Below, one piece after another: positions 44,498 through 49,296 of a stretch of DNA of 49,471 nucleotides (positions are counted from its first letter, which is position 1; every line of letters begins with the position of its first letter). The DNA comes from a virus. The stretch spans positions 1-49,471 of IMG/VR virus record IMGVR_UViG_3300005466_000034; one strand, written 5' to 3'. The notes under the pieces are model-generated. The model saw only the letters and a program-made list of their open reading frames with translations. It had not been told where the DNA came from and did not search any database. The position numbers and the translations under genes were made by a program.

Positions 44498-45427
44498 ATG
44501 GGAAAACATCACCACCCACAGAGTCACCGCTTCTCTCATAGCGCTCTGCTCTCTTTGAGCATTCTGTCGGTGGGTTCTCCAGTAGGCCTTCTCATGGCTG
44601 TCGATGCCCCTCAGCCTATCCCCAAGCAAGCTGAGGCATCCGAAGATCCATCTATAGACTCTCTCGACGACTCATGGCTAGCTCTGCCCCAAGGAAAGCC
44701 CACTCTGAACAATGCAGTTCTGCCTCAGATTAAGGCGGTATCTACCAAAGCCAAGAAGAAATCCTCACCATCACCATCACCATCACCCTCTCCCTCTCCA
44801 ACCTCTAAGCTAATCAAGACTCCAACATCTAAGCCAACTCCCACTGTTACCACAAAGACTACCCAACGTCCTACTGTTGTTCAGCGACAGATAGCCAAGA
44901 CTACTACCAATCCAAGTATCACTAAAGACAGAGCTACACCAACCACTAAAACAACGAAGGCACCCACACCCACTCCAATACCTACCAAAGCTCTCAAGTC
45001 TACAACTACACAGACTACACAGACTACACAGACTACACAGACTACTACAACTAAGAGTATACCAACACCGAAACCTTCTTCTAGTGTTGGTGAGAGGATA
45101 GTTGCAGTAGCCAAAACATACGTTGGCAGGAACATGCCCTACAAGATGGGCGGGGATTCACCAACTACCGGCATTGACTGTTCACATTTCGTCTACAGAG
45201 TACTCACTGAGGCTGGACTCAACGTCCAATATAGGAGCAGTGACGCTCTTGCAGCATGGGCAGAGCGCACAACTGATCCTCAACCTGGAGATCTTGTCCT
45301 GTATAGAGGCCATGTTGGTATCTATGCAGGCAATGGAATGATGGTTCATCACGGAAAGCCGGGAGGGGCTTTCTTTGTTAAAATCTACACACAAAATTTC
45401 ATAGGGTATGGAAGGGTGCCATTGTAA
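44498..45427 (+). CDS. Secreted NlpC/P60 peptidase with Ser/Pro/Thr linker
   Basis: A 309-residue protein. Residues 1-37 look like a signal peptide (His-rich basic start, then ALLSLSILSVGSPVGLLMAVDA). Residues 60-195 are a disordered linker with SPSPSPSPSPSP and TQTTQTTQTTQT. Residues about 196-309 are an NlpC/P60 domain with Cys228 in TGIDCSHF, His272 in GHVGIYAG and a later His pair, which hydrolyses D-gamma-glutamyl bonds in peptidoglycan. The signal peptide makes it an exported wall enzyme, unlike the cytoplasmic endolysin at 38406. The end overlaps the next gene (TAATG). Confidence 0.85.
   Translation: MGKHHHPQSHRFSHSALLSLSILSVGSPVGLLMAVDAPQPIPKQAEASEDPSIDSLDDSWLALPQGKPTLNNAVLPQIKAVSTKAKKKSSPSPSPSPSPSPTSKLIKTPTSKPTPTVTTKTTQRPTVVQRQIAKTTTNPSITKDRATPTTKTTKAPTPTPIPTKALKSTTTQTTQTTQTTQTTTTKSIPTPKPSSSVGERIVAVAKTYVGRNMPYKMGGDSPTTGIDCSHFVYRVLTEAGLNVQYRSSDALAAWAERTTDPQPGDLVLYRGHVGIYAGNGMMVHHGKPGGAFFVKIYTQNFIGYGRVPL
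44765..44790 (+). repeat. Hexanucleotide coding repeat (Ser-Pro)
   Basis: Four copies of TCACCA-type hexamers in a row, continued by diverging CTCTCC units, encode the (Ser-Pro) run in the linker of the NlpC/P60 protein. Likely grown by replication slippage; it makes linker length easy to change. Confidence 0.75.
45008..45043 (+). repeat. Four exact 9-bp coding repeats (Thr-Gln-Thr)
   Basis: ACACAGACT occurs four times without interruption and encodes TQTTQTTQTTQT in the linker of the NlpC/P60 protein. Exact identity, including third bases, points to recent slippage, in contrast to the diverged 20-residue repeats of the fibre gene. Confidence 0.85.
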
Positions 45428-46098
45428 TGGCAGGTAAGCATCGTGCACGAAGTCAATTCGTTCCGCGGATCATTAAGGTCGGGACCACGGGTCTGGTTGC
45501 TTCTAGTATTCCTCTCGTTAGTGTCGGGAGTGCTGAGGCTACTGAGTCTACTAGTCCAGTGCTGGAAATCATTGCGCACTGTGAGAGTGGCAACTCGAAC
45601 GTCAACACCAGAGGTGGATCTACCGCAAGTGGATTCCTCCAGATCCTCGACTCAACCTGGCGCGCGTTCGGTGGTACACAGTTCGCTTCACGGGCAATCA
45701 ATGCAAGTCGTGAAGAGCAATTTATTGTAGGACAGAGAATCCTTGCTGGTCAGGGAATCAATGCCTGGAATCCATCCAGAGGATGTTGGGGTGGAAAGAT
45801 CGGTAAGGCAACAACCGTAACCAATGCTGCACCCACACCCAAGAAGAAGGTAGCGACAACTCCAGCTCCAACTCCAGTCAAGAAGGCGAAGTCTGCACCT
45901 AAGACTATTAAGAAGCCTGTCTCCACTCAGTCTATCTCTCGGAATGCTGCTAAGAGCTACACAATCAAGAGGGGAGATACGCTCCTCAAGATTGCCCGTG
46001 CTAACAATACTACCTGGCGTTCTCTCTACAATGCCAATCGTGATACAGTGAAGAACCCGAATCTTATTTATACGGGTAATCACTTGCGATTGACGTGA
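45427..46098 (+). CDS. Secreted Rpf-like transglycosylase with LysM domain
   Basis: A 223-residue protein. Residues 1-37 form a signal peptide (basic start, TTGLVASSIPLVSVGSAEA). Residues 42-120 are a resuscitation-promoting-factor type domain: LEIIAHCESGNSNVN with catalytic Glu53, ASGFLQILDSTW, and a Cys pair (Cys52 and the Cys of RGCWGG) likely to form a disulphide outside the cell. A Pro/Lys linker leads to a LysM domain at 178-222 (SYTIKRGDTLLKIARANNTT...NPNLIYTG) that binds peptidoglycan. This is the domain order of host RpfB/RpfE-like secreted muralytic proteins. ATG overlaps the preceding stop. Confidence 0.88.
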   Translation: MAGKHRARSQFVPRIIKVGTTGLVASSIPLVSVGSAEATESTSPVLEIIAHCESGNSNVNTRGGSTASGFLQILDSTWRAFGGTQFASRAINASREEQFIVGQRILAGQGINAWNPSRGCWGGKIGKATTVTNAAPTPKKKVATTPAPTPVKKAKSAPKTIKKPVSTQSISRNAAKSYTIKRGDTLLKIARANNTTWRSLYNANRDTVKNPNLIYTGNHLRLT

Positions 46099-46105
46099 GG
46101 TAGTA

Positions 46106-46519
46106 ATGGGACAAAGAGAGTTCCCGGCAGTGATCTCTGAAGTTTACGATGGAGATACTGTCAACGTGTGGTGTGATCAAGGATTCGATAATTGGCGTTT
46201 CACCAAGGTTCGTATTCGGGGTATCGCAACCAGGGAACTCTCCCAACCTGGTGGGAAGGAGGCTAGAGATTTCCTCTCTGGCCTTCTTCCTCCGCGTTCT
46301 TATCCTCTAGAACCAACATGTGTTGTCTACAGCTACAAGTGGGACAAGTACGCACCCCGTGTAGACGGTGACATCCTTATGTTTAATGCCCGTCTAGTAT
46401 CGGAGTTGATGATTGAAAGTGGGTACGCACTCCCTTGGGACGGTAAAGGAAAGCAGCCTATTCCAGCGTGGCCTATCCCTCCTGAGATGGACAAAGGCAG
46501 AACGCTTTTTGTTCCTTAA
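46106..46519 (+). CDS. Staphylococcal-nuclease-like (SNase) protein
   Basis: A 137-residue protein with the SNase-fold motifs: VISEVYDGDTVNVW (calcium Asp in DGDT), KVRIRGIATREL (the Arg and Glu of the active site, but Ala where the family has Asp in V-D-T-P-E), and WDKYAPR (second catalytic Arg). Family length is similar. No signal peptide is seen, although most bacterial relatives are secreted. It may degrade nucleic acid or have become a binding protein because of the lost Asp. It stands between two exported-protein genes. Confidence 0.78.
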   Translation: MGQREFPAVISEVYDGDTVNVWCDQGFDNWRFTKVRIRGIATRELSQPGGKEARDFLSGLLPPRSYPLEPTCVVYSYKWDKYAPRVDGDILMFNARLVSELMIESGYALPWDGKGKQPIPAWPIPPEMDKGRTLFVP

Positions 46520-47231
46520 GATCGTAGGGCTAGCGGCTGTACCTGCTGTGGCTATCGGTGGTACGATTGGAATCGTCACAACCCCTACGCCTCAAGGGAA
46601 CTTACCTATATGGACACCGCCAGCGGCTGCCTCGCCTGCGCCCTCGAAGAACTTACCAATAACCCAAACCACTACGAAGCCGAACAACACACCTGCAAAA
46701 TCGGAACCGAGACTGGTTCAGGGTCCAAAGGTAGTGCCAGCGCTTATACGCTCGACAACTACCAGCAAGACACCGGACTCACGGCCATCTACCCCCACTC
46801 GGGAAGCGGAAACGAAGACGCAGCAAACTACTGCATCCTCGGTCTCATCGGAGAAGCCGGTGAGATCGCCAATAAGTTCAAAAAGCTCTACCGAGACGCA
46901 CCCAACTTCGCAACCCACCCAGCAGAATACTACGACTTCTACGCAAAACTCCGAGAAGACATCTTCAAAGAACTCGGGGACGTCCTCTGGTACACCAGTC
47001 AGCTCGCCACGGAACTCGGCGCAACACTCGGAAGCGTCGCAGCCGACAACATCCGTAAGCTCAACTCCCGGAAAGAGCGCGGAAAGCTTCACGGGAGTGG
47101 AGACGAGCGCTAGAACAGCTGGTTCCTTCTGCGCAAAGGGAGATGCCGGTAAGACAGGACAGAGTGCTACAGGAATAAAACTCACCTGCAAGATAACGGG
47201 CAGCGATTCATCATTTCGCTGGCGAGAATAG
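46509..47231 (+). CDS. Anchored Ser/Thr-rich protein with C-terminal Cys domain; hosts a nested gene
   Basis: About 240 residues from TTG 46509 (no in-frame ATG; TTG 46413 is an alternative). The N-terminus is a signal or anchor helix (FLKIVGLAAVPAVAIGGTIG). The middle, about residues 25-200, is a disordered Ser/Thr/Pro/Gln linker. The C-terminus, SFCAKGDAGKTGQS...KLTCKITGSDSSFRWR, is a Cys-pair module I recognise from actinobacterial exported proteins. The folded ends argue for a real gene even though the linker region also encodes a MazG-like protein in another frame. The product should lie at the outer membrane face or be secreted. Confidence 0.62.
   Translation: MFLKIVGLAAVPAVAIGGTIGIVTTPTPQGNLPIWTPPAAASPAPSKNLPITQTTTKPNNTPAKSEPRLVQGPKVVPALIRSTTTSKTPDSRPSTPTREAETKTQQTTASSVSSEKPVRSPISSKSSTETHPTSQPTQQNTTTSTQNSEKTSSKNSGTSSGTPVSSPRNSAQHSEASQPTTSVSSTPGKSAESFTGVETSARTAGSFCAKGDAGKTGQSATGIKLTCKITGSDSSFRWRE
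46610..47113 (+). CDS. MazG-like nucleotide pyrophosphohydrolase, nested out of frame
   Basis: A 167-residue protein. From residue 45 it is a clear all-alpha MazG-like domain: YTLDNYQQDTGL, LGLIGEAGEIANKFKKLYRD (metal-binding EAGE motif near 79-87), and IFKELGDVLWYTSQLATELG (second E-L-G-D motif near 120). Such enzymes hydrolyse NTPs or dNTPs to monophosphates. The N-terminal 45 residues are low complexity and include three Cys. AAGGGAAC stands nine bases before ATG 46610. The whole gene lies within the gene 46509-47231 in a different frame, and its third codon positions are strongly C/A-biased, unlike neighbours. Confidence 0.8.
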   Translation: MDTASGCLACALEELTNNPNHYEAEQHTCKIGTETGSGSKGSASAYTLDNYQQDTGLTAIYPHSGSGNEDAANYCILGLIGEAGEIANKFKKLYRDAPNFATHPAEYYDFYAKLREDIFKELGDVLWYTSQLATELGATLGSVAADNIRKLNSRKERGKLHGSGDER

Positions 47232-47242
47232 GACAACAGAAT

Positions 47243-49216: not shown

Positions 49217-49222
49217 TACCCG

Positions 49223-49296
49223 TCGGAGTGAGAGGATTTGAACCTCCGACCCCCTGCTCCCAAAGCAGGTGCGCTGCCAAACTGCGCCACACTCCG
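49223..49296 (-). tRNA. tRNA-Pro (anticodon UGG)
   Basis: A complete cloverleaf on the reverse strand: acceptor CGGAGTG/CACTCCG (7 bp), D-stem GCGC/GCGC with AGTTTGGCA loop, anticodon stem CCTGC/GCAGG with loop TTTGGGA (anticodon TGG), variable GGGTC, T-stem GGAGG/CCTCT with loop TTCAAAT and discriminator A. CCA is not encoded (ACG follows). It reads CCN proline codons and may compensate for codon use that differs from a G+C-rich host. Confidence 0.95.

Follow-up and report, generated by a model that had tools for sequence, protein, structure and literature searches.

In a soil phage, the 49,471-nucleotide IMG/VR record IMGVR_UViG_3300005466_000034 (the whole stretch analysed, hereafter the window), a mazG-type ORF lies entirely within a longer ORF on the same strand and out of frame with it, such that about 500 bases are open to being read twice (Table 1). 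We hold it probable, at roughly 0.8, that this is true same-strand double coding, in which the disordered linker of a membrane-anchored protein lies over the gene of a MazG enzyme. Five relatives of the phage furnish a natural experiment on this point: codon choice within mazG changes at the point where the second frame stops and keeps to its pattern where that frame continues. Such a within-gene change allows selection on a hidden frame to be tested directly, independent of expression.

An earlier note, made from the letters alone, had described two long frames sharing positions 46610-47113, one of them with its own ribosome site and a MazG-like domain bearing the motifs EAGE and ELGD, the other with an anchor helix, a Ser/Thr/Pro linker and a Cys pair. 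Most of this architecture was recovered: both ORFs are present, a probable AAGGGA precedes the nested one, and the outer one has a single hydrophobic helix, a linker rich in Ser, Thr and Pro and two Cys in its tail. The domain and its motifs also stand, but the first 45 residues of the nested product are not MazG, homology beginning at about residue 46. The nested frame is the outer frame shifted by one base, the second codon position of the outer gene being the third of mazG, and the outer frame is also open from an upstream TTG at 46413. A frameshift or sequencing error is ruled out, two contigs being concordant over the locus and both frames hundreds of bases long; beyond the window's phage, the full-length overlap was observed in just one contig, 99.8% identical to it. 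A minus-strand ORF of 172 codons (46718-47236) was set aside as probably an effect of composition, the stretch being T-poor.

Table 1. The two overlapping ORFs, their parts and their upstream neighbours, in window positions
Feature	Positions	Strand	Remarks
NlpC/P60 wall-hydrolase gene	44498..45427	+	upstream; profile match
Transglycosylase-LysM gene	45427..46098	+	upstream; wall-hydrolase order same in L064 and L071
Nuclease-like gene (PHROG 452)	46106..46519	+	upstream; overlaps outer ORF by 11 nt
Probable ribosome site AAAGG, outer ORF	46493..46497	+	11 nt upstream of TTG; predicted from sequence
Outer ORF: single-pass anchored protein (anchor, Ser/Thr/Pro linker, two-Cys tail)	46509..47231	+	TTG start, 240 aa; same ORF type in five relatives
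Membrane-anchor helix, residues 5-23	46521..46577	+	mean Kyte-Doolittle 2.21, sole such segment of outer ORF
Ser/Thr/Pro linker of outer protein	46578..47113	+	also enzyme gene from 46610
Probable ribosome site AAGGGA, nested ORF	46594..46599	+	10 nt upstream of ATG; predicted from sequence
Nested ORF: N-terminal extension and MazG nucleotide pyrophosphohydrolase	46610..47113	+	ATG start, 167 aa
N-terminal extension, CLAC-x16-HTC	46610..46744	+	outside MazG homology; tentatively, what may remain of a small CxxC..HC ORF that is separate in relatives
MazG core	46745..47110	+	third positions C/(C+T) = 0.90 over 119 codons compared
11-codon insertion in MazG	46910..46942	+	adjoins place where relatives' outer ORF stops; from alignments
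Outer-only tail with two Cys	47114..47231	+	no relative found; atypical codon usage

The nested ORF is a MazG nucleotide pyrophosphohydrolase, its predicted activity being assigned by family. It matches the Pfam MazG profile PF03819 at E 1e-7 (32.3 bits, with a cut-off of 22) and PHROG 229 at E 1e-30, and it carries both metal motifs of the EXXE/EXXD type (EAGE at 46853-46864 and ELGD at 46970-46981), their spacing being wider than in the relatives owing to the 11-residue insertion between them. An AlphaFold2 model of the core has a pLDDT of 84 and shows the four-helix fold, Foldseek matching it to dCTPase and iMazG structures with a probability of 1.00 at E-values of only about 0.01. The core is about 51-55% identical to those of the relatives. 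The cyanophage S-PM2 MazG prefers dGTP and dCTP and is inactive on ppGpp (PMC6850273); the window enzyme would clean or recycle nucleotides in the cytoplasm.

The outer ORF, by comparison, matched no family in Pfam and PHROG profile searches, and its product had no relative in a protein-level search against the annotated phages; this and its TTG start were counted against double coding. Codon usage in its anchor part is normal (0.13 per codon vs 0.15±0.12 for real genes), and the tail past mazG scores -0.14 vs 0.16±0.11 in normal genes. Searches with the two-Cys tail gave nothing significant in phages, Pfam, the relatives' contigs or 296 genomes of one phylum, and no claim is based on what we take to be a likeness to actinobacterial secreted modules. 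As no relative was detected and its codon usage is atypical, the tail is the least certain part of the locus. Since, in the window and in two relatives (L064 and L071), the outer gene follows those for NlpC/P60 and transglycosylase-LysM, its position points to a likely role of the product in the envelope or in lysis; the protein would sit in the membrane with its long disordered linker outside.

The surroundings of the locus hold some further features. Of these three phages, the window has the nuclease gene between the wall hydrolases and the outer ORF. A secreted polysaccharide lyase gene (PF14099; 47243-48061), unmatched in the phage collection, directly follows the locus, and the Thr-rich linker of NlpC/P60 differs in frame by 9 bases (45005-45013) between the window and contig IMGVR_UViG_3300005535_000050. 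A tRNA-Pro(TGG) lies downstream of the locus in all three (window 49222-49296, L064 3647-3719, L071 3687-3762) and is perhaps useful to phages with proline-rich linkers.

When the MazG protein was held fixed and its codons were randomised with the usage of the phage, the overlap was open in 1.2% of cases for the full mazG and 3.8% for the core, and other open windows of the same size are present elsewhere in the phage genome; on its own, openness of the second frame says little for double coding. What that frame encodes is far more unusual. Over the core, it has 58% Ser/Thr/Pro vs 34±4 in open randomisations and 6% hydrophobic residues vs 37±4, with 0/1131 reaching the former value and 0/1131 being as low as the latter, while over the whole overlap the values are 53% vs 30±3% expected and 10% vs 38±3% expected, respectively. 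Not one of 1820 same-size windows across 35 other genes of the phage comes up to these values. The outer frame is Ser/Thr/Pro-rich and hydrophilic because its second codon positions are the C-biased third positions of mazG, where C/(C+T) is 0.86; in the 35 other genes it is 33-59%, and no other gene of the phage has this bias. C (or A) at mazG third positions does not alter the enzyme, and it renders the shifted frame rich in Ser, Thr, Pro, Ala, Asn and Lys and clears it of stops and hydrophobic residues; both proteins would be made, from separate starts.

Gene transfer could give the same bias, and relatives were therefore needed as a test. Terminase and MazG searches yielded five distinct phages with mazG beside wall-hydrolase genes, namely L064 (=L065), L066, L067 (=L069), L070 and L071 (=L075), so that the comparison covers six phages of few lineages. 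All six conserve the same ORF pair in the same relative frame. In 5/5 relatives, the anchored Ser/Thr/Pro-rich ORF enters mazG and stops 154-193 bases in, giving a partial overlap, with one to four additional stops in the outer frame beyond the first. The mazG genes of unrelated genomes have no anchored Ser/Thr/Pro ORF over them.

Codon choice in the relatives follows this boundary. When the five are pooled, mazG third positions give a C:T of 147:30 upstream of the outer stop and of 78:64 downstream of it, for an odds ratio of 4.0 (P = 7e-8, by a statistic that ignores shared ancestry); the C preference falls after the stop in 5/5, individually at P <= 0.05 in 4/5. Their C/(C+T) ranges from 0.76 to 0.94 in the overlap and from 0.46 to 0.60 after the stop, as against 0.42-0.49 in their other genes. 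In the window, the outer frame has no stop and the C bias continues to the end of mazG: the part that matches the relatives' single-coding half has a C:T of 26:4 vs 78:64 (P = 0.001). The excess of Ser/Thr/Pro and the deficit of hydrophobic residues persist in 6/6 phages after conditioning on an open frame. As the earlier note had proposed to check, synonymous sites are indeed more alike inside the overlap than outside it: at conserved residues, third positions are identical in 279/491 cases inside and 100/254 outside over all relative pairs, which are non-independent, and in the L064/L071 pair the identities are 0.76 and 0.33. Selection on the second frame is thus visible as synonymous-site constraint on the first, and, because the mazG bias relaxes past the relatives' stops, persists in the window and is joined by conserved third positions, we read these patterns as selection on both frames. 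The same note had named relatives with an intact MazG gene and stops in the other frame as evidence against double coding. Literally, all five are of this kind; yet they do not refute it and instead come to support it, because the codon bias of mazG relaxes beyond those stops.

These data bear directly on the origin of the bias. If mazG had come from a donor preferring NNC/NNA codons, the outer frame would be no more than its shadow, an account that fits the standing of mazG as the codon-usage outlier of the phage (no other gene exceeding 0.59), the fact that the other frame is always open when mazG's own codons are shuffled, and the movement of mazG genes between phages (PMC2297514). A donor's bias would, however, span the gene, whereas in the five relatives it is limited to the stretch shared with the outer ORF and ceases close to the stop of that ORF, and the anchor helix lies outside mazG with normal coding statistics, which makes this origin very unlikely. 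Selection at the RNA level, for instance to keep the beginning of mazG unstructured or rich in C, would agree with the biased part being the 5' half in the relatives; it is the least probable account of all, given that the bias follows the extent of the outer ORF, over 47-62 codons there and over all of mazG in the window, that this ORF also retains, upstream and in frame, an anchor helix, and that unrelated mazG loci have no comparable pattern.

The five relatives fall into two subclades whose outer stops fall at comparable places in mazG, and because these stops cluster, position in mazG and presence of the stop are partly confounded, with the window alone breaking the confounding. It might accordingly be supposed that the outer gene is real but relevant only to about mid-mazG in the window too, the openness of the second half and the Cys tail being chance read-through. 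That the outer ORF stops at that place in 5/5 relatives, and that the tail lacks relatives and scores poorly for codon usage, speak for this; the C-rich second half of the window's mazG, set against relatives with one to four further stops there, speaks against it, and on balance we judge it unlikely, if less so than the other alternatives.

A mazG that is dying, its frame held open only by a linker still in use, could be read from the window, where the ancestral start, which in four relatives is an ATG directly preceding the core, is missing and ATG 46610 is the sole start, and from L070 (G013), whose mazG (~2486-2821) starts with ATC behind a kept AAAGGA and has Ala for the second, metal-binding Glu of EXXE. 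That copy may be inactive, with the outer frame kept. For the window, such decay is improbable: EAGE and ELGD, the core identity and a confident MazG fold are all retained, and the relatives' mazG is intact past the overlap, beyond the linker's protection.

MazG is an old and widespread family, and the linker is thus the younger reading within the enzyme region, mazG being the older coding frame. The earlier note's interpretation holds as to real double coding of a disordered linker with a folded enzyme, but its suggestion of an enzyme printed onto the linker does not. In the terminase tree, the window groups with the partial-overlap contigs L018 and L020 (contigs of L065 and L075, near-identical to L064 and L071), with partial-overlap L025 (a contig of L070) outside. 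On this placement, the most parsimonious view is that the full-length overlap is derived; the MazG tree does not fix the placement of the window, and the derived status rests on the terminase tree. Both the full-length overlap and the cysteine tail would be recent additions in the window lineage, and the locus would belong to an overlapped-to-embedded series, with the anchored ORF reaching into the 5' half of mazG in the relatives and through the remainder in the window.

The N-terminal extension may have a history of its own. Three relatives have a small CxxC..HC ORF (FPTGYNPLCPTC...HC) entirely inside the anchored-protein ORF and in the mazG frame (L066 1985-2320, L067 2042-2335, L070 1985-2308), and its motif is better conserved there than the linker. 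The window extension matches these ORFs of L066 and L070 in spacing and position, with a weak protein alignment, and tentatively the small ORF can be seen as fused to mazG in the window. A second nested ORF in L064/L071 (HDINHYTVTQYD) was rejected as a gene, as it lacks an ATG/GTG/TTG start and a shadow of the linker frame could account for its conservation. A joint reading, which we entertain as a possibility with more doubt than confidence, is that the linker offers other genes a permanent place to settle, in one alternate frame: the CxxC..HC ORF would have fused to the window mazG, the two-part enzyme gene would have become embedded, and the later linker would be the enzyme's shifted reading.

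Annotation of tailed phages routinely overlooks or discards long double-coding genes, and the present locus suggests a searchable rule for other phages, whereby C or A at third positions yields a soluble linker in the shifted frame. The phenomenon is of a known kind; we know of no earlier case in which the partner is an unrelated enzyme, in which one clade holds such a series or in which a single gene supplies its own control, and a literature search turned up no description of an overlap involving mazG. In sequence, metal motifs and predicted fold, the window MazG is like other phage MazGs (PHROG 229; cyanophage S-PM2 MazG), from which it differs in its N-terminal extension, the 11-residue insertion between the motifs and its complete nesting. 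In viral overlapping genes, a disordered product over a folded frame is a general trend (Rancurel, Pavesi and colleagues; PMC8227390, PMC6195259), and those sets share with this locus a folded ancestral frame, a disordered other product and a marked composition bias; they come mostly from small eukaryotic viruses, whereas here a tailed phage of ~50 kb provides single- and double-coding halves as an internal control.

A parallel might also be struck with the spanins (lambda Rz/Rz1, P2), in which a membrane-protein gene likewise shares DNA out of frame, one partner being Pro-rich and little structured, and in which the pair is wholly nested or partly overlapping and lies near lysis genes. Spanin partners, however, act together and are both in the envelope, whereas here the nested partner is an unrelated cytoplasmic enzyme, MazG, rather than an outer-membrane lipoprotein. 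The Rpf-like transglycosylase domain (PF06737) of a neighbouring gene presumably indicates an actinobacterial, Gram-positive host, and to our knowledge spanins are not expected in such hosts. A survey of spanins proposed that loss of the first gene's stop turns "overlapped" into "embedded" pairs and had no family combining members of both types (PMC6139136). The relatives and the window resemble the two ends of this proposed path, with both types in one clade, and may thus exemplify a step hitherto only proposed for phage membrane-protein genes.
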